Positions 8,163 to 35,021 of a DNA stretch of 40,907 nucleotides are shown one piece after another. A model generated the notes under the pieces. It searched no databases. It saw only the letters and a program-made list of their open reading frames with translations, and was not told the DNA's origin. The position numbers were made by a program, and so were the translations under genes. Within the stretch, counting starts at the first letter, position 1. Each line of letters begins with the position of its first letter. The DNA comes from Candidatus Brocadiaceae bacterium (GTDB lineage: Bacteria > Planctomycetota > Brocadiia > SM23-32). The stretch covers positions 1-40,907 of the forward strand of contig JAAYEJ010000038.1 of assembly GCA_012728835.1 (NCBI GenBank). Direction: 5' to 3'.

Positions 8163-8240
8163 TGGTAGCCCCAAGGGGATTCGAACCCCTGTTACCGGAT
8201 TGAGGGTCCGGTGTCCTGGACCGGGCTAGACGATGGGGCC
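8163..8240 (-). tRNA. tRNA-Glu (anticodon CTC)
   Basis: A full cloverleaf with encoded CCA (CCA is the complement of 8163-8165). Acceptor arm GGCCCCA pairs with TGGGGCT (one G-U), the anticodon stem is CCGGA/TCCGG, and the T arm carries GGTTCGAATCC. The 7-base anticodon loop reads CCCTCAA, giving CTC at 8202-8204 (complement). Position 33 is C instead of the almost universal U. It follows tRNA-Gln by 16 bases and is presumably processed from the same transcript. Confidence 0.93.
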
Positions 8241-8256
8241 ACGCTGCGAGAGAGTG

Positions 8257-8330
8257 TGGCTGAGGATCCAGGATTCGAACCTGGAACGCCTGATCCAGAG
8301 TCAGGTGTGTTGCCGTTACACCAATCCTCA
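8257..8330 (-). tRNA. tRNA-Gln (anticodon CTG)
   Basis: A 74-base tRNA with encoded CCA. Acceptor TGAGGAT pairs with ATCCTCA, discriminator G, anticodon stem CCTGA/TCAGG, loop CTCTGGA giving anticodon CTG, and T arm with GGTTCGAATCC. It is first in the tandem tRNA unit, directly behind a strong-looking promoter. Only the CTG-decoding form is in this window. Confidence 0.96.
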
Positions 8331-23038: not shown

Positions 23039-24028
23039 GTGGACAACGGAACTGACCCCAGAACCGTGCTCCTCTACTCGGGCGGCCTCGACAGCCGGCT
23101 GGCCTGTGAAGTGCTGCGCCGGGCCGGCGTGGACGTCGTCCTTCTCCAGCACGAAAGCGTGTTCTTCCCCCTGCGGGAGGGCTCGGAGGCGCCGCCCGGC
23201 GTCTCGGTGGTCGTGCGCGACCTGACCGAGGAGGTGATCCGCCTGGTCGCCGAGCCGCACTACGGCCTGGGGAAGAACGCCAACCCGTGCCTCGACTGCA
23301 AGCAGCGGATGTATGCGCTTGCCTGGGAGGAGGCCGGGCGGCAGGGCGCGGATTTCATCGCCACCGGCGAAGTGCTCGGGCAGCGCCCCATGTCGCAGAA
23401 CCGCGAGGCATTCGCCCGGATGGAGAAGGGCGCCGGCCTGCGCGGGCTCGTCCTGCGGCCCCTTTCGGGCCGGCTTCTGCCGCCCACCATCCCGGAGGAA
23501 CGCGGCTTGATCGACCGGGCCGACCTGCTGGACCTGCAGGGGCGCGGCCGCAAACGCCAGATCGCGCTGGCCGCCGCCTGGGGCATTCGCGACTACCCCA
23601 CCCCTGCCGGAGGCTGCAAACTGACCGATCCGCAGTACGCCGGCCGCGTCCTGCGGCTGCGCGCCCTGGGCCGCCTGACGGCGGAGAACCTGCGCGCCGC
23701 ACGCTTCGGGCGGTTCGTGGAGTTGCCGGACGGCGCCCCGGCCCTGATTGGCCGCAGCCATGCCGACAACGAGGCCCTTCTGGCCGATGCGCCGGAGGGG
23801 TCCTTCATCGTCGAACTCGCCGGGCGGCCGGGGCCGCTGGCCTGCGTGCTCGGGCCGGCCGGCGCGGCGGATCTGGAGCAGGCAGGGGCGCTTGTGATAC
23901 GCTACAGCCGGTTTGCGGGCGTGCCCGGGTGCGAGGTGCTCGCGCGCACGCGCGACGAGGCCCGCGCCGGGCATGCACGGACGGCGGCCGGTGACGGCCG
24001 GCCCGGCCGCAGGGAGCCGGCAGGGTGA
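23039..24028 (+). CDS. PP-loop ATPase, tRNA thiouridylase-like
   Basis: 329 residues. The PP-loop LLYSGGLDSRLACEV (SGGLDS at 14-19) activates a base by adenylation. NPCLDCK gives Cys84 and Cys87, and TPAGGCKLTDPQYAGRVLRLR gives Cys193, the Cys-x2-Cys plus distant Cys pattern that in several ThiI/MnmA/TtuA-like enzymes holds a [4Fe-4S] cluster for sulfur insertion. IATGEVLGQRPMSQNR is also typical of this group. The likely job is 2- or 4-thiouridine formation in tRNA; the exact position is unknown. GTG 23039 has no clear ribosome site. Its stop overlaps the next start as GTGA, so translation is coupled. The last 30 residues look unstructured. Confidence 0.78.
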   Translation: MDNGTDPRTVLLYSGGLDSRLACEVLRRAGVDVVLLQHESVFFPLREGSEAPPGVSVVVRDLTEEVIRLVAEPHYGLGKNANPCLDCKQRMYALAWEEAGRQGADFIATGEVLGQRPMSQNREAFARMEKGAGLRGLVLRPLSGRLLPPTIPEERGLIDRADLLDLQGRGRKRQIALAAAWGIRDYPTPAGGCKLTDPQYAGRVLRLRALGRLTAENLRAARFGRFVELPDGAPALIGRSHADNEALLADAPEGSFIVELAGRPGPLACVLGPAGAADLEQAGALVIRYSRFAGVPGCEVLARTRDEARAGHARTAAGDGRPGRREPAG

Positions 24029-25380
24029 GCATGTTCACTTTCGAGACCATCGGGCAACTGCACCGGCAGCTCGAACGCGGCCCGGCACGCGTGCGCCGCC
24101 AGCAGGTCCAGCGCCTCGAGGAGCTGGTGGAGGGCCTCGAGCCCGATCGCCTGTATCCGTACGACTTCCTCTTCTACCGCATCACGCGCTACCGCCCTCG
24201 CGAGGACGTCCGCGAGAGCTTCCCGGGACGCGAACTGCTTCCCGACCTCCTGACGACGCTCCGCGAACTCTCGGCCGGCGTCCCGGCCGACGTCGCCGAG
24301 GTCGACGAGACCGTCTGCTCCCTGGCCGACGTGGCCCGGTCCTGCAACGTGTCCGTGCGCACCGTGCGCAGGTGGCGCCTGCGCGGGCTGCCGACGGCCT
24401 ACTACCGGTTCCCGGATGGGCAGGCGCGGATGGGCGTGCGGGAGTCGGTGCTGGCGCGATTCCTGGAACGGAACGCCGAGCTGGTGAGTTCCTCCGGCCG
24501 ATTCTCGCGGCTGACCGAGTCCGAACAGGCGGAGATCATCCGCCGGGCGCGGAAACGCACGTCCGCCGGGGCCGACGTCACCCTGACCGGAGTCGCCACG
24601 GAGATCGCCGAGGAGATCGGACGCGCCCCGGAGACGGTGCGCCTGGCCCTGCTGCGCCATGACCGCGAACGACCGGACGAACGCGTGTTCGAGCACACCT
24701 CCAGGCGCCCGGCCCGCCCGGGCGAGGTGGCCGCGAGGATGCTGGCCGGGTACGCGGAGGGCCGGCCCGTCGAGGAACTGGCGCAGACCTTCGGCCGCTC
24801 GCGGGCGACCGTCTACCGGCTGATCAACCGCCAGCGGGCGATCAGGCTGCTCAAGGAGGCCATCGCGAGCCGGTCGGATCCGGCCTTCGAGACGCCCGGT
24901 GCCGACGAGGCCGTCCTCGGCCCGGAGTTCGGTGCGGCCCTGGCCAGGGCGGAGTCCCTGCCGGCGCGCGCCCAGAAACGGGAGCCGGACGGCGCCTGGA
25001 AGCAGTCGCCGCTGAGCCGGGCGGAGGAGGCCGCGCTCCTGCGCGCATACCACTATGCCCGGCACAGGGCGGGCCGGCTGCGGCGGGAGCTGGACCCGCG
25101 CCGATACGTGCCCTCGCGCCTCCTGGACGAGATCGAGTCGCTCCTGGCCCTGGCCGCAAGGATCAAGGACCTCGTGATGCGCATCCATGCCCCGCTGGCG
25201 GAGCACGTCGCCCAGCAGCACTCCGCGCCGGGATCCGATTCGGCTGAGCTGGTGCCGGCGGCCCTGGAGCAGATGGCCGCGTCGGTCGATTCCTTCGACT
25301 ACGCCGGCCCGGCCCGGTTCACGGCGCACGCGAACCTGGAGATGCTCAAGTACTTCGCCCGGAGGCCGGCGAAAGGCTGA
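24025..25380 (+). CDS. Multi-HTH protein with truncated sigma-70-like C-terminus
   Basis: 451 residues. Three helix-turn-helix candidates are visible: SLADVARSCNVSVRTVRRWRLRG (98-121, MerR/sigma-like), ATEIAEEIGRAPETVRLALL (191-210) and VEELAQTFGRSRATVYRLIN (249-268). Residues 328-447 then follow sigma-70 regions 1.2 to 2.4: SPLSRAEEAALLRAYHYARH, IKDLVMRIHAPLAEHVAQQH, and SVDSFDYAGPARFTAHANLEMLKYFAR. The frame ends four residues later, so regions 3 and 4 are missing. The core-binding 2.2 stretch (ELVPAALEQMAASVDSFD) is far from the usual DLIQEGNIGLMKAVEKFD type. It may be a regulator or an altered sigma factor. GTG start overlaps the thiolation gene stop; ATG 24031 is possible. Confidence 0.72.
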   Translation: MSMFTFETIGQLHRQLERGPARVRRQQVQRLEELVEGLEPDRLYPYDFLFYRITRYRPREDVRESFPGRELLPDLLTTLRELSAGVPADVAEVDETVCSLADVARSCNVSVRTVRRWRLRGLPTAYYRFPDGQARMGVRESVLARFLERNAELVSSSGRFSRLTESEQAEIIRRARKRTSAGADVTLTGVATEIAEEIGRAPETVRLALLRHDRERPDERVFEHTSRRPARPGEVAARMLAGYAEGRPVEELAQTFGRSRATVYRLINRQRAIRLLKEAIASRSDPAFETPGADEAVLGPEFGAALARAESLPARAQKREPDGAWKQSPLSRAEEAALLRAYHYARHRAGRLRRELDPRRYVPSRLLDEIESLLALAARIKDLVMRIHAPLAEHVAQQHSAPGSDSAELVPAALEQMAASVDSFDYAGPARFTAHANLEMLKYFARRPAKG

Positions 25381-25467: not shown

Positions 25468-26802
25468 ATGTTTCGATTCGCCGCGTTCCGGCCGCTCCGC
25501 TACAACCCCGACGAGATCTCCTTCATCTCGCGCGTCGTGGCCCCGCCCTATGACGTGATCGATTCGCAGGAGGCCAGGGCGCTCCGGGAGCAGGACCCCC
25601 ACAACGTGATCCGCCTCATCCTGGGGCGGGAACCCGAGGGCGGCCGCCCGGAAGGCGAATACGCAGCCGCGGCCGAGTGCCTGAACGCCTGGCGGCGCGC
25701 CGGCGTTCTGATCCGCGACGAAGAGCCGTCCATCTACATCAGCGAGCAGACGTTCACGGCCGACGACCGCCAGTACGTGCGCACCGGCATCCTCTGCGCC
25801 CTGCTGCTGCAGGACTACTCGAGCGACGGCGTGCTGCCCCACGAGAACACGTTCTCCGGACCCAAGATGGACCGGTATCGCCTGATCTCGGCATGCCGCG
25901 CGATCACGAGCCCCGTCTTCGGCATCTTCTCCGACACTGACGGCCAGGCCGACGCGCTGATCGCCGCCTCGACCGACGGGCTGCCCCTCTACGAATTCCG
26001 AGACGAGGCGGATGTCGCCCATCGGATATGGCGAGTACAGGATCCGGCAGTGATCGGCCGACTGGCCGGGCTGCTGGCAGGGGAACGGCTCCTGATCGCC
26101 GACGGCCACCACCGCTACGAGACCGCCCTCCGCTACAGCCGGGAACACCGGAGCGCCGACGGCCCGCCCGGCACGGCACCGGAGGACTTCACCATCCTCT
26201 TCGCCGTCTCGATCGGAAACAGCGGCCTGGTGAGCCAGCCCACGCATCGCCTGGTCAAGGTCGGCGACTCCTTCGACGCGGGCGCGTTCCTCGAGCAGCT
26301 CCGGGAGGACTTCTTCGTCGCAGAGGTGGCCGTCCGAGGCCCGGAAGGCCTGCTGGAGGCCTATCGCGAGGCCGCGGACGAGGCGGGATGGATCGGCGTC
26401 TATCTGTCGCCGGCGCGGTTCCTGAAGCTGCGTCCGATCCTCGCGGATCCCCTCGCCGCGTCGTTCCCGGACCAGCCGGCCGTCTGGCGCGCCCTGCCCG
26501 TGGCCATCCTGCAGAACCTCCTGATCGAGCCCCTCCTGAGCCGCCCCCCCGCCGAGGCGATCCGCACGGGCGAGCTGGGCTTCACCCAGAAGCCGGAACA
26601 GGTCTACTGGCGCGTCGAGGGAGGCCGCAGCGACGTGGGCTTCCTGCTCCCTCCGATCTCGACCCGGACCGTCGAAGAGGTGGCCCGAGCCGGAGCCCGG
26701 ATGCCCCAGAAGTCGACCTACTTCTGGCCGAAGATCCCGTCCGGATTCGTGATCTATCCCCACGATGACGCTGATTGCCTGCCAAGCCTGTCGCCCTTGT
26801 AG
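25468..26802 (+). CDS. DUF1015-family protein
   Basis: 444 residues, the full family length. Family marks: RVVAPPYDVIDSQEARAL near the start, HNVIRLILG, YVRTGILCALLLQDY, HENTFSGPKMDRYRL and the hallmark IADGHHRYETALRY near the middle, with LGFTQKPEQVYWRV and PPISTRTVEEVARAGARMPQKSTYFWPKIPSG near the end. The function of DUF1015 is not established; relatives often sit near serine or phosphoserine metabolism genes, which are not visible here. ATG 25468 has AAAGG about 10 bases upstream. It lies 87 bases after the sigma-like gene and could share its transcript. Confidence 0.92.
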   Translation: MFRFAAFRPLRYNPDEISFISRVVAPPYDVIDSQEARALREQDPHNVIRLILGREPEGGRPEGEYAAAAECLNAWRRAGVLIRDEEPSIYISEQTFTADDRQYVRTGILCALLLQDYSSDGVLPHENTFSGPKMDRYRLISACRAITSPVFGIFSDTDGQADALIAASTDGLPLYEFRDEADVAHRIWRVQDPAVIGRLAGLLAGERLLIADGHHRYETALRYSREHRSADGPPGTAPEDFTILFAVSIGNSGLVSQPTHRLVKVGDSFDAGAFLEQLREDFFVAEVAVRGPEGLLEAYREAADEAGWIGVYLSPARFLKLRPILADPLAASFPDQPAVWRALPVAILQNLLIEPLLSRPPAEAIRTGELGFTQKPEQVYWRVEGGRSDVGFLLPPISTRTVEEVARAGARMPQKSTYFWPKIPSGFVIYPHDDADCLPSLSPL

Positions 26803-26999
26803 CTGCGGGACCGACAGCCGAATCCGGGGCAGGTTTCTTCACTCCCGGCTTCCGATCTGCCCCCCGTGTCCGGCCACGGACCGCGCGGACTCCGGCCCGG
26901 ACCGCTCGGTACGTGCGTCCCCGCAGTCAGGGATCGGGACGGGCGGCCCGTCACTCGACCCTGGACGCCTCTCTGCCCGAGAAATGCGCCTCTCCGGCC

Positions 27000-27029
27000 T
27001 TTACGCCGCAATCGGGTTTCGGGTATAAT
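27000..27029 (+). promoter_or_regulatory. Promoter-like element upstream of dnaN
   Basis: TTTACG (27000-27005), 18-base spacer, perfect TATAAT (27024-27029). It lies 400 bases before dnaN, so it may start a long leader, an untranslated RNA or transcription through the putative origin. Confidence 0.45.
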
Positions 27030-27079
27030 GGAGGCAGACGCGGGGTGGTTCACCCGTTCTTTGTGCAGGGCACGGTGAG

Positions 27080-27271
27080 TGTTGAAATCCTGTCGATAGC
27101 CGGTCGGTTACCTGTGGAAATCGTGTTGGAATGCAGCCGATTGACTGTTGCCCATCTGCCGGTTTTCGCGGGCAGATACGGCCAAGCCCGGAGTCAACGC
27201 TTATGCGGCTTCGCCCGGACCGGATTTCAACCGTTTTTCGTCAACATCTCCCTCGGGCACGGATTTCGTAA
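27080..27271. repeat. Cluster of five TGTTGAAATCC-like 11-mers
   Basis: Plus strand: TGTTGAAATCC at 27080-27090, TGTGGAAATCG at 27113-27123 and TGTTGGAATGC at 27124-27134 (directly abutting the previous copy). Minus strand: GGTTGAAATCC (27222-27232) and TTACGAAATCC (27261-27271). The first and fourth share ten identical bases in opposite orientation. The spacing and both orientations fit initiator-binding boxes, but this is not proven. Confidence 0.5.
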
Positions 27272-27428
27272 GGTATGACCAGAAGGCAACTTAGGAATAA
27301 TCCCCTTCGTTGTCTTCGTTCTCCGTTCCCTTAGTGGTTGTTGTGAATGTCTTTATAGGTAGACGACTCAGAACACAAAACGGTTCCGCGGGAGCCGCCC
27401 TGTCGCACGCATTACTGGAGAATGCGCG

Positions 27429-28538
27429 ATGAAATTGGTAGCCGAACGGGAAGCGCTTTTCCACGGGTTCCAGCGTGTCGGCGCGATCGTCAGCACCAAC
27501 ATCCAGCAGCCCGTCTATCGGAACGTCCGACTACAGGCTTCTGAGGACGTGTGGCTATCGGCCACGGACCTGGAAGTCGGGATTGCCCTGAGGATTCCGG
27601 GCGCACACGTCGAAGAGACGGGCGTGGTTCTCCTGCCCCCAACACGCGTGGCTCCCATCCTGGGCGCGACTCCGGATGAGCACGTATCCATGGTCGAAGA
27701 CGATGGGGCGGTGCGCATCGAGACGAACGACGGGAGATTCCGCATCCTGGGAGAGGATCCGACGGACTTCCCCGACATGCCCGAGCTTCCCGCGACAGGC
27801 GTCGTGGAGGTCGATCCGGAGGTTTTCAAGTACGCCGTGCGGAGGACGTTGTTTGCGGCGGCGGAGGAACGCGGCCGGTTCGCGCTGAACGGCGTCCTGT
27901 TCGTGCTCGGCAAGGACGAGGGGCTGGAAGTCGTGGCGGCCGACGGTGCCCAACTGGCACACGTCAGGAAGAAGGTCAGCAATCCCGAAGGCATCCAGAC
28001 CGAGTTCATCGTGATGAAGCGGGGGCTGGAACTGCTGATGCGGATGGCGGATTACGGCCGGGAGCCCGTGCGGTTTGCGGCGACGGAGAACCAGTTCATC
28101 GCCGAGAACGATGCGGGCCGGATGTTCTGCCAACTGGTCGACGGTCAGTTCCCCAACTACAGGGAAGTCATCCCCGAGGAGGGGAAGGTGAAGGTGCAGC
28201 TCCCGGTGAAGGAGATGTTGAGCGCCGTGAAACGCGCCTTCTTCCTGACGACGGAGCAGGCGCGGGTCGTGGACTTCCGGTTCGTCTCTGGTGAGCTGCT
28301 CATCAGTGCCGAATCGGCGGACATCGGTCGGGCGGACGTGCGGCTGCCGATCGACTATGACGGGGAGGAGGCCACGATCTCCTTCAACCCCGCGTTCCTT
28401 CAGAACATGCTGTCCGTCGTGGAGCGGGACGTCGTCAAGATGCGCTTCAACGACCATCGCTCGCCTTGCGTTCTGAAAAGCGGTCTGGACTACACCTACG
28501 TTCTGAGCCCGGTCGTCCGGGAAGAGGCCGAGGTATGA
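27429..28538 (+). CDS. dnaN: DNA polymerase III beta subunit (sliding clamp)
   Basis: 369 residues, the standard clamp length, built of three similar domains. The ring tethers polymerase III to DNA. Recognisable parts: the start MKLVAEREALFHGFQRVGAIV, LSATDLEVGIALRIPG, FRILGEDPTDFPDMPELP, LNGVLFVLGKDEGLEVVAADG, CQLVDGQFPNYREVIPEE and the C-terminal YTYVLSPV. Start ATG 27429 is 8 bases after GGAG. Its TGA overlaps the dciA ATG (ATGA). dnaA and recF, common neighbours, are not beside it in this window; the long non-coding region upstream is a candidate origin. Confidence 0.97.
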   Translation: MKLVAEREALFHGFQRVGAIVSTNIQQPVYRNVRLQASEDVWLSATDLEVGIALRIPGAHVEETGVVLLPPTRVAPILGATPDEHVSMVEDDGAVRIETNDGRFRILGEDPTDFPDMPELPATGVVEVDPEVFKYAVRRTLFAAAEERGRFALNGVLFVLGKDEGLEVVAADGAQLAHVRKKVSNPEGIQTEFIVMKRGLELLMRMADYGREPVRFAATENQFIAENDAGRMFCQLVDGQFPNYREVIPEEGKVKVQLPVKEMLSAVKRAFFLTTEQARVVDFRFVSGELLISAESADIGRADVRLPIDYDGEEATISFNPAFLQNMLSVVERDVVKMRFNDHRSPCVLKSGLDYTYVLSPVVREEAEV

Positions 28539-28885
28539 GTGGTCCCGCCCCGTGGGATGCGCGGGAGACGGCCCGGTCGTTCGGAGATGTAGTCCGTGCG
28601 GTTCTGCGCAGGAAGAAGTTCGCCGAGAAGGGTCGCTACGGACGGCTCGTGAAGGTCTGGAACGATCTGGTGGGACCGGGGGTGGCGGAGCACACCCGTG
28701 TGAAGGCATTCCAGGACGGGCGGCTTGTGGTGGACGTAGGCTCGCCGGCCCTACTCCATGAACTCAACGGCTTCCTCAAAGACAGCCTGCTGGCAGGTAT
28801 GCAGTCGACGGACGCCGGCCGCGACATCGCCCGGTTGGAGTTCCGTTTGGGCGTCGTGCGTTGCGACGGCGACGAAGGCAGATAG
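28535..28885 (+). CDS. dciA: DciA-like protein (DUF721)
   Basis: 116 residues. Small DUF721 protein; DciA loads or recruits the replicative helicase DnaB in bacteria lacking DnaC. Family marks are SFGDVVRAVLRRKKFAEKGRYGRLVKVWNDLVGPGVAEHTRVKAFQDGRLVVDVGS, with the KVWNDLVGP core and LLHELNGFLKDSLL, while the last 20 residues vary. It overlaps dnaN by four bases and is followed 18 bases later by gyrB, the gene order that is typical for dciA. The role therefore rests on both sequence and position. Confidence 0.9.
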   Translation: MSGPAPWDARETARSFGDVVRAVLRRKKFAEKGRYGRLVKVWNDLVGPGVAEHTRVKAFQDGRLVVDVGSPALLHELNGFLKDSLLAGMQSTDAGRDIARLEFRLGVVRCDGDEGR

Positions 28886-31378
<2,493 letters not shown>

Positions 31379-31442
31379 GATGAGCAGACACGCGTCCGCC
31401 GGCGCGCCTGGCCTTCAGGCCCTTCGGATCCGGGAGGCGGAG

Positions 31443-32429
31443 ATGGAGTGTCCGCACTGTGGAGCGCCCCTGGCCGGCTCGTATCTGGGGCGCCGGGACC
31501 GGAAGGCCGTCTGCCCGGTCTGCGCGGGGTCTCTGGCCCCGGACCGGCCGGCAGAGCCCGAGCCCGAGCCCGAGCCGGAGCGGACGCGTTGGTCCTTCGG
31601 CCACTCGCAGGAGGACGACCCGTCCGGGCCGGCGTTCGTGTGTCTGCCGGAAGGGCAGAAGGTCAACCCGCTGACGGCCGGGCCGTTGCTCGAGCAGTAC
31701 GCGGGTCTGTCGCGCATCGACGCGCGGCGGCGCGCCGCCCGCAACATGGGCCTTCTGGCCGAGGGACTGGGCCTGGACAGGGCCCGGGACCTAGTGGCCG
31801 CCCTGCGCGAGTTGGGCGTCGAGGCGTTCGCGCTGTCGGCGGCCCGCGTGCCCGGCGAGATGGTCGAGGTGCCGATCGAGCGGATCGACGGCGCCGAAGA
31901 CGATGCGCTGCACATACAGATGAACGCCCGGGGCGAGATCCGGGCGGTGGCGTGGTCGCAGGTCGTGGCGGGACTCTGCACGCGCAAGCGGTTCCCCGAA
32001 CGCGAGCAGGTGGCCGTCACGGTGGACCGTCCCGTCAGGCGGGCGGCCGGGCTCGGCATCCGGTGGACGACGATGGAGTCCGAGACGCGATACATGACGC
32101 AACCGGTGCGGCCGCGGCCGCAGGTGACTCTGGTGCTTTCGGGCCGGCCGGGCCAGGCGCACATCGTGACGTTCGGTGAAGATGACGTGCGGTACGCCTA
32201 TCTGGGCGCGCGCATCCTGCCGACTCAGCAGCGGAACCTGGGCCTGCTGTTGCGGGACATCGCGGCGCACTGCCCGCACGGGTTCTTCCCGCAGGGCTAC
32301 CGGGCGGCGTCGGGAGGTGCGTTCGATCGCGTGCCGGCGGTGGTCGGCACGCTGGAGTACGGGCGTTACGTGCAGTGGGCGGTGTGCTGTGCCGCCGCGA
32401 GCAACCTGTTTCATACCGACGGCGCGTAG
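31443..32429 (+). CDS. Unrecognised zinc-ribbon protein between gyrB and gyrA
   Basis: 328 residues. I do not recognise the family. The N-terminus has a four-cysteine zinc ribbon (Cys3, Cys6, Cys24, Cys27: CPHCGAP and CPVCAGS), followed by a Pro-Glu repeat linker (35-47). Residues about 85-140 are helical and repeat-like (SRIDARRRAARNMGLLAEGL, RDLVAALRELGVEAFAL). The last 180 residues form a mixed domain (TQQRNLGLLLRDIAAHCPHG) with no catalytic motif seen. ATG 31443 is chosen since GGGAGG stands 5 bases before it; the frame is open back to ATG 31380, 2 bases after the gyrB stop. Co-transcription with the gyrase genes is very likely. Confidence 0.75.
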   Translation: MECPHCGAPLAGSYLGRRDRKAVCPVCAGSLAPDRPAEPEPEPEPERTRWSFGHSQEDDPSGPAFVCLPEGQKVNPLTAGPLLEQYAGLSRIDARRRAARNMGLLAEGLGLDRARDLVAALRELGVEAFALSAARVPGEMVEVPIERIDGAEDDALHIQMNARGEIRAVAWSQVVAGLCTRKRFPEREQVAVTVDRPVRRAAGLGIRWTTMESETRYMTQPVRPRPQVTLVLSGRPGQAHIVTFGEDDVRYAYLGARILPTQQRNLGLLLRDIAAHCPHGFFPQGYRAASGGAFDRVPAVVGTLEYGRYVQWAVCCAAASNLFHTDGA

Positions 32430-32459: not shown

Positions 32460-35021
32460 ATGACCAAGGACGCGGGCCGGGTCGAGGAACTGCTCATCGA
32501 GCAGGAGATGAAGGACGCCTATCTGACGTTCGCCATGAGCGTCATCATCAGCCGGGCGCTGCCGGACGCCCGCGACGGGCTCAAGCCCGTGCAGCGCCGC
32601 ATCCTGCGGGGCATGGACGAGCTGAACCTCGGTCCCCGGTCCAAGACGCGAAAGTGCGGCAAGATCGTCGGCGACGTCCACGGCAACTACCATCCTCACG
32701 GCGAGACGGCCATCTACGACACGCTCGTGCGCCTCGCGCAGCCGTTCACGCTCCGCTACCCGCTCATCTCGGGGCAGGGCAACTTCGGATCGCTCGACGG
32801 CGATCCCGCAGCGGCCCAGCGCTACACCGAGGCCCGGCTGAGCCGCGCCGGCGCCGAGATGCTGGCCGACCTGAACCTCGACACCGTGGACTTCGTCGAG
32901 AACTACGACAACACCCGCATGGAGCCCTCGGTGCTCCCCGGGCGCTTCCCGAACCTGCTGGCGAACGGGGCGGCCGGCATCGCCGTGGGCATGGCCACGA
33001 GCATCCCGCCGCACAACATCCGCGAACTCTGCGACGCCATCACGGCCGTCATGGACAACCCCGGAATCACCGTGCGCGAGATCATGCAGATCATGCCCGG
33101 CCCCGACTTCCCGACCGGCGGGACGATCTGCGGGCAGCAGGGCATCTACGACGGCTACAGCACGGGCCGGGGGACGCTCGTCCTGCGCTCGCGGTCGCAC
33201 CTCGAGGAGGGCCGCGGCGGCCGGCGGCGTCTCGTCTTCACCGATCCCGCCTGGCGCATGGACCGCGACTCCCTGGTGACCCGAATCGCCGAGGCCGTGC
33301 AGGCGGGGCGCGTCGAGGACGTCAGCGACATCCGCAACGAGAGCGACAAGGGCGGCACGCGCATCGTCGTCGACCTGAAGCGCGAGGCCGACGCCGACGT
33401 CGTGCTCAACCAGCTCTACCGCTACACCCCCCTGCAGGGCACCGTCAGCCTCATCCTGATTGCCATCGTCAACGGCTACCCGGAGACGCTGGGCATCAAG
33501 CGGGCGATGCAGCTCTACCTGGAGCACCGCACCGAGGTCATCCGCCGCCGCACGACCAACCTGCTGGGCAAGGCCGAGGACCGCGCACACGTCCTGGAGG
33601 GCCTCCGGATCGCCATCATCAACATCGACGAGGTGATCCGCATCATCCGCGACAGCCGCGAGGTGGCCGAGGCCCGGCAGCGGCTCAAGGACAGGTTCCA
33701 GTTGACCGACCGGCAGGTCGACGCCATCGTCTCAATGCAGCTGCGCAGCCTGGTGGGCCTGGAACGCCTCAAGGTCGAGCAGGAACACGCCGAGCAACTG
33801 GCGCGGATCGAGGAATACCGGAGCATCCTGGCCAACCCCGAGAAGGTCAAGGACATCATCCGCGATGATCTGGCGGACATCCACCGCACCTACGGCGACC
33901 AACGCCGCACGGACATCTCCGGAGAGGTGGAGATCTTCGGCCGCGAGGACCTGATCGCGGAGGAGGAGACGATCGTCACCGTGAGCCATCGCGGCTACGT
34001 GAAGAGGACGCGGCCCGACGAGTTCCGCGCCCAGGGCCGCGGCGGCAAGGGCGTCATCGGGGCCGACGTCCAGGACGACGACTTCATCGAGTTCGCCTTT
34101 GCCGCCAGCACGCATGACTACATGCTGTTCTTCACGAACCTGGGTCAGGTCTACTGGCTCAAGGTGTTCATGCTGCCGCAGATGCCGCGCACCGCCCGCG
34201 GGCGGGCGCTCGTCAACGTGCTGACGCTTCAGGAAGGCGAGCGCGTCACGGGGGTCATTCCCGTCAGCGAGTTCGACGAGGACTACTACCTGCTGATGGC
34301 CACCTCGGCCGGCGTTGTGAAGAAGACGCCGCTGGACGCCTTCGGCAAGCGCGGTTCCGGCGGCATCATCGCCCTGAGCCTGGCCGAGGGCGACCAGCTC
34401 ATCGGCGTGCGCAAGACCAACGGCAAGCAGGACATCATCCTCGGCACGCAGAAGGGCCGCGCGATACGGTTCAACGAGCAGGACGTGCGGCCGATGGGCC
34501 GCACCGCCGCCGGCGTGCGCGGCATCCGCCTGCGCAAGGGCGACCGCGTCGTGGGACTGGCCATCGTGTGCGAGGGCGCCGCCCTGCTGACCGTGAGTGA
34601 GAACGGATACGGCAAGCGCACGGACTTCTCCGAATACGCCTCCCAGCGCCGCGGCGGACAGGGCGTCATCGCCATCAAGGTGTCCGCCCGCAACGGCGCG
34701 GTCGTGGCCGTGCACGAGACGTTCGAGACCGAACAGCTCATCCTGGTCACCGAACAGGGGAAGACCGTGCGGATCCCGGCCGCGTCCGTCAGCTGCATCG
34801 GGCGCAACACGCAGGGCGTGCGCATGATCACGACCGACGCCGGCGACCGGGTCAGCAGCGTGGCGGCCATCGTGCCGGACGACGACGAGGAGGAGACGGT
34901 CGAGACCGCAGGCGAGGTCCCGGAGCCCGCGCCGGCCGAGCCGGAGCCCGCCGAGGATGAGGATGGCGGCTCGGATGCCGACGACGCCGAGGATGCCGAC
35001 GCTCAGGAGTTCGATGCCTGA
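32460..35021 (+). CDS. gyrA: DNA gyrase subunit A
   Basis: 853 residues. The N-terminal winged-helix region contains the catalytic Tyr122 in AAAQRYTEARL, at the same number as in Escherichia coli. The quinolone-pocket motif is GETAIYD (81-87): Glu82 and Thr83 replace the usual Asp and Ser, and Asp87 is kept. The C-terminal beta-pinwheel repeats carry the GyrA box QRRGGQG at 729-735, which separates it from ParC. The last 50 residues are highly acidic, as in many gyrases. ATG 32460 has GGAAG upstream. It forms the cleavage-rejoining core with GyrB. Confidence 0.97.
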   Translation: MTKDAGRVEELLIEQEMKDAYLTFAMSVIISRALPDARDGLKPVQRRILRGMDELNLGPRSKTRKCGKIVGDVHGNYHPHGETAIYDTLVRLAQPFTLRYPLISGQGNFGSLDGDPAAAQRYTEARLSRAGAEMLADLNLDTVDFVENYDNTRMEPSVLPGRFPNLLANGAAGIAVGMATSIPPHNIRELCDAITAVMDNPGITVREIMQIMPGPDFPTGGTICGQQGIYDGYSTGRGTLVLRSRSHLEEGRGGRRRLVFTDPAWRMDRDSLVTRIAEAVQAGRVEDVSDIRNESDKGGTRIVVDLKREADADVVLNQLYRYTPLQGTVSLILIAIVNGYPETLGIKRAMQLYLEHRTEVIRRRTTNLLGKAEDRAHVLEGLRIAIINIDEVIRIIRDSREVAEARQRLKDRFQLTDRQVDAIVSMQLRSLVGLERLKVEQEHAEQLARIEEYRSILANPEKVKDIIRDDLADIHRTYGDQRRTDISGEVEIFGREDLIAEEETIVTVSHRGYVKRTRPDEFRAQGRGGKGVIGADVQDDDFIEFAFAASTHDYMLFFTNLGQVYWLKVFMLPQMPRTARGRALVNVLTLQEGERVTGVIPVSEFDEDYYLLMATSAGVVKKTPLDAFGKRGSGGIIALSLAEGDQLIGVRKTNGKQDIILGTQKGRAIRFNEQDVRPMGRTAAGVRGIRLRKGDRVVGLAIVCEGAALLTVSENGYGKRTDFSEYASQRRGGQGVIAIKVSARNGAVVAVHETFETEQLILVTEQGKTVRIPAASVSCIGRNTQGVRMITTDAGDRVSSVAAIVPDDDEEETVETAGEVPEPAPAEPEPAEDEDGGSDADDAEDADAQEFDA

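Follow-up and report, generated by a model that had tools for sequence, protein, structure and literature searches.

A candidate replication origin of diverged DnaA boxes beside dnaN in a planctomycete family whose single DnaA lacks the arginine finger

The window analysed here covers 40,907 bp of a contig from a Candidatus Brocadiaceae bacterium. It carries dnaN, for the sliding clamp (27429..28538, + strand; PF00712, PF02767 and PF02768), followed on the same strand by dciA, for the helicase operator/loader (28466..28885; PF05258; this is the longest frame, and the true start may be further in), gyrB (28904..31378) and gyrA (32460..35021). A frame of 349 aa (31380-32429) with no Pfam match lies between the two gyrase genes. 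Upstream, 626 bp (26803-27428) separate dnaN from a DUF1015 gene ending at 26802; the frame just before the latter (24025-25380) is matched by several helix-turn-helix families (Sigma70_r4_2, HTH_23). The gap contains a sigma70-like promoter, TTTACG-18 bp-TATAAT (27000..27029, +), about 400 bp before dnaN, at its upstream edge. On the dnaN side there is an AT-rich stretch (27329..27378), a candidate unwinding element by composition only: among 50-bp bins over the 600 bp before dnaN it has 60% AT, against 22-52% in the others. It begins about 85 bp from the closest box, so that by composition an AT-rich element adjoins the box cluster, as an oriC would have it. The length of the gap and the order of boxes, AT-richer stretch and dnaN-dciA-gyrB-gyrA are as the first-pass annotation gave them.

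Six boxes of 11 bp form two facing arms. Box 1, TGTTGAAATCC (27080..27090, +), which read as a DnaA box gives ATTTCAACA, opens a tandem pair with box 2, TGTCGATAGCC (27091..27101, +; DnaA-box reading CTATCGACA), 11 bp away. Box 3, TGTGGAAATCG (27113..27123, +; DnaA-box reading ATTTCCACA), stands 22 bp from box 2, and box 4, TGTTGGAATGC (27124..27134, +), 11 bp from box 3. The convergent arm is made up of box 5, GGTTGAAATCC (27222..27232, −), and box 6, TGACGAAAAAC (27233..27243, −), again 11 bp apart. There are thus three head-to-tail pairs with an 11-bp step (27080/27091, 27113/27124 and 27222/27233), where the earlier reading had seen a single direct tandem; the two + pairs are 33 bp apart. 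That reading had counted five boxes in 190 bases on both strands. The clustering stands, with six boxes, but the copy at 27261 (−) was dropped: it fits only five of eight core positions and is out of phase. The pair in opposite orientation, 27080 and 27222 (−), is indeed identical over ten bases.

The cluster rises far above background. Box 1 is the sole exact copy of TGTTGAAATCC in the 3.07-Mb genome, and of 14 sites within one mismatch of it genome-wide, two fall inside the dnaN gap. The core TGTNGAAAA, at six or more of its eight positions, is matched seven times within 170 bp of the gap and at most four times in other windows of the same genome (313 kb); the box is thus enriched here, as an origin would have it. 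Over the 40.9-kb window, sites with up to three mismatches number 43 against 32 +/- 5 by chance, a slight excess; since this count is barely above chance, the signal is carried by clustering and phasing, and not by overall abundance. tRNA genes for Glu (ctc) and Gln (ctg) lie at 8163-8330 on the − strand, and their T-loops account for the near-matches GGTTCGAATCC.

Ten bases of 27080-27090 can pair with 27222-27232, and both copies are downstream of the promoter; conceivably, then, the inverted copies are not protein sites but pair with each other in a structured dnaN leader RNA. This is very improbable: tandem copies follow one another on a single strand with an 11-bp step, and in relatives, where the opposing arms are incompletely complementary (for example in G003), every box matches the consensus independently. 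With no Rfam match and arms that do not fully pair in relatives, an RNA leader element was rejected.

The plan is shared by the family. In the dnaN gaps of seven further family genomes (dnaN 45-67% identical), the order common to the other genera is 11-bp-stepped tandem boxes in two facing arms, an AT-rich stretch, and dnaN. Relative to dnaN, + boxes occupy about -350 to -300 and − boxes about -207 to -155; an AT-rich 50-bp bin recurs at -100 to -50, with 60-68% AT in the GC-rich members. The eight family gaps hold 14 pairs of same-strand boxes spaced exactly 11 bp apart, against 0.6 +/- 0.8 in shuffled sequence (maximum 5 in 300 trials), with echoes of the spacing at 22, 33 and 44 bp. Counts of single boxes are somewhat circular, as the core TGTNGAAAA was picked after viewing these gaps, and counted singly the boxes are not above chance in G002, G004 and G008; that choice bears far less on the spacing peak and on the genome-wide searches. 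A strict tandem pattern, TGTNGAAANNNTGTNGNNA, has four matches in nine family genomes, all four in the dnaN gap; its reversed control has one match, in G007. When a related strict tandem pattern was run against 75 genomes of the class, 11 matches were returned, five in the gap before dnaN and six inside ORFs (tmk-like and TPR-like among them); given the position of these six, the idea of another conserved tandem-box locus in the class was rejected.

The promoter is conserved as well: its columns TT and GTAT.AT are invariant in five family genomes, and relatives have TTGAC-N17-TATAAT at the same distance before dnaN. DnaA is known as a transcription regulator. One way to understand the boxes, then, is as operator sites, through which DnaA or another regulator controls dnaN-dciA-gyrB from this promoter, with replication starting elsewhere. 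A strong, conserved promoter just upstream of the boxes and directed at dnaN suits such a role, and dnaA itself, searched for signs of autoregulation, has no box cluster before it. Against this, an oriC is usually laid out in just this way, with facing tandem arms and an AT-rich stretch next to them, and in sister families the equivalent place falls in the dnaA-dnaN interval, where an oriC is commonly located. GC skew in one relative also argues against operators. In G009, of the same order, the cumulative minimum on a 340-kb contig falls at 321,406, which is 657 bp before the dnaN start at 322,063. In the source genome, a draft of 82 contigs whose own skew was computed within the window, there is a local minimum at 27,013 (within 17-40.9 kb). 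On the contigs of G003, G007 and G002, which are short, the minimum falls no more than about 250 bp from where dnaN starts; G028, a closed member of the class, turns locally at dnaA-dnaN, and its coarse genome profile is irregular. For the skew check named in the first-pass annotation, the local minimum in the window and the one in G009 agree with an origin, but in the family contigs G008 and G005 the minimum lies elsewhere than in the dnaN gap. On balance a purely operator role is unlikely, and the original proposal of a candidate origin gains support from box enrichment, from the recurrence of the 11-bp-stepped plan upstream of dnaN in relatives, and from the G009 minimum.

What kind of box is this? 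On the opposite strand it reads TTTTCNACA, that is, TTWTNCACA with the free base shifted from position 5 to position 6. Exact TTWTNCACA is missing from the dnaN gap, in agreement with the earlier annotation; the nearest approach is the box at 27113 (ATTTCCACA), with one mismatch to the canonical form. Instead of the new 11-mer family that had been claimed, the repeats appear, from their sequence, to be a variant of the 9-bp DnaA box set on an 11-bp repeat step, in which C6 of TTWTNCACA has been freed. Among other families of the class, TTATCCACA is the box in the dnaA-dnaN interval of f3, f5 carries TTTTCTACA or CTTTCTACA in tandem with an 11-bp step, and f6 has mixed box types.

The source genome encodes a single DnaA (PF08299 and PF00308, both above cut-off), on contig C17 (5303-6751), unlinked to dnaN. 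The same holds for seven further family genomes in which DnaA was matched: one copy each, in no case next to dnaN. Most genomes elsewhere in the class carry two copies, of which one is dnaN-linked, and at least two PF08299 matches are present in 139 of 148 sampled Planctomycetota genomes; this points to two or more DnaA genes as the general state in Planctomycetota, on which a search of an open-access library found no paper. Several closed Planctomycetota genomes have a short frame of about 340 aa with a PF08299 match at the contig start. By its named neighbours, the class itself can be placed in Planctomycetota, at no finer level. In the tree, the family DnaA groups with the unlinked second paralogue (support for the split 100/100, and 100/99 when the long-branch G009 is left out), and the alternative placement was rejected (p-AU 0.024). 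The evidence that it is the second paralogue is good but not final, as long branches affect the placement. A test that grouped f1 with linked DnaA copies alone was set aside: named planctomycete DnaAs nest among the linked copies. By these comparisons the dnaN-linked copy appears to have been lost from the family; its genomes are all drafts (67-97% complete), but eight independent absences with a readable dnaN context make loss in assembly unlikely. The dnaN-linked DnaA of G023 and G021 (L196, L199) has LLLDNVEQL in place of LLIDDIQF at Walker B; in those two genomes it is apparently the linked copy that is degrading, and not the unlinked one.

The family protein has kept the fold of DnaA (predicted structure, pLDDT 88; TM 0.92 to domain III of Bacillus subtilis DnaA), and the helix-turn-helix of domain IV is retained across the family genera. 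Its recognition helix has changed: the E. coli-type GGRDHTTVLHA is GGLTHSSVKHA in the window genome. Among the DNA-contact positions (399, 423, 432-435 and 438-439, from PMC5043019; the contact list also from PMC5742627), the base-contacting D433 has become T or S and L438 has become K in all eight family members. In this family, then, both residue 433 and box base 6 have changed. Yet f5 has boxes with T at position 6 while a canonical D433 DnaA persists there beside the second paralogue, so a pairing of residue 433 with base 6 can be proposed only hypothetically. The first-pass annotation had left it between an initiator binding a diverged box and some other factor; as the box is TTTTCNACA and the genome's only DnaA has changed recognition residues, the diverged-box alternative is the one favoured.

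A second set of changes concerns ATP. The arginine finger R285 and the box VII residue R281 are absent from 8/8 family members (DRLKSRFGWGL is PGLQALLRSGF in the window genome), so that part of the ATP switch seems to be lost; class paralogues outside the family retain R285. Five members also lack the sensor 2 Arg, and four have an altered Walker B. All eight retain Walker A, and ATP is therefore probably still bound. A further scenario supposes that the family replicates independently of DnaA, as some cyanobacteria do (PMC7198777), the boxes being regulatory only or a relic and the degenerate AAA+ domain a mark of relaxed selection. The loss of both arginines throughout, and of sensor 2 and Walker B features in part, would fit. 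Such independence fits poorly with the retention of Walker A, or with box phasing and a domain IV helix-turn-helix that persist across genera whose dnaN is only 45-67% identical; this scenario is quite unlikely, somewhat more so than an operator role.

The best explanation, to which we would give a probability of roughly 0.7, is that the gap at 26803-27428 is oriC, and that its six diverged boxes are bound by the sole, respecialised DnaA without the usual ATP/Arg-finger filament. It draws on the boxes with their phasing and conservation, the single DnaA with its altered residues and the skew minimum near dnaN in a relative, all of them read from sequence; from these we infer DnaA binding, firing, ATP-independence and a melting site at the gap. 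The six boxes (core TTTTCNACA), in two facing arms, would be bound by the DnaA of contig C17, with the 11-bp step placing about one domain IV per helical turn. In E. coli, R285 contacts ATP on the adjacent DnaA, and the filling of weak ATP-DnaA sites depends on it; an origin of only non-discriminating sites, without ATP-DnaA sites, rescues DnaA(R285A) (PMC6727663). The family origin may be of that kind: few, phased, independently bound boxes. As R285 and R281 are gone, DnaA would occupy them by direct binding and by contacts other than an ATP/Arg-finger filament; once bound, it would strain the gap and melt the AT-rich stretch about 100 to 50 bp before dnaN, and helicase would then be delivered with DciA, encoded just downstream.

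A more tentative proposal, for which we put the odds somewhat below even, is that the lineage swapped the standard initiator for an Arg-finger-less DnaA paralogue, and thereby came to ATP-filament-free initiation at origin boxes of changed specificity. The indispensability of the ATP/Arg-finger filament for origin opening has been argued mostly from E. coli mutants; in a family with a well-conserved origin and an Arg-finger-less DnaA as its only one, the question could be put to the test in nature. Such a family also offers an example of change on both sides, in the box and in the recognition helix.

Known systems offer partial parallels. The basal unwinding system of B. subtilis (tandem boxes with DnaA-trios; PMC8287927) likewise has tandem boxes near the opening site; unlike it, the gap gave no clear trio pattern 0-16 bp from the convergent boxes in a scan of one orientation. 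E. coli oriC (TTWTNCACA) shares the layout of box arrays as two arms that face each other, with an AT-rich stretch next to them, the close tandem spacing and, putatively, one DnaA domain IV per box. It differs in that here position 6 of the box is not restricted to C, the candidate origin is the gap before dnaN with dnaA unlinked, and DnaA has T/S at 433 and K at 438 and no R285 or R281. A further parallel is tma-oriC of Thermotoga maritima (9-mer ACCTACCAC; PMC10316083): a diverged box goes with a DnaA of changed recognition helix, which reads RSHPVV at the corresponding place. The box sequence differs, however, and T. maritima forms ATP-DnaA oligomers on its boxes. Engineered oriC-allADP of E. 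coli, functional with DnaA(R285A) (PMC6727663), resembles the proposed origin in that the Arg-finger filament would be dispensable; that is a man-made single case, whereas the present one would be natural, presumably ATP-independent and common to a whole family.
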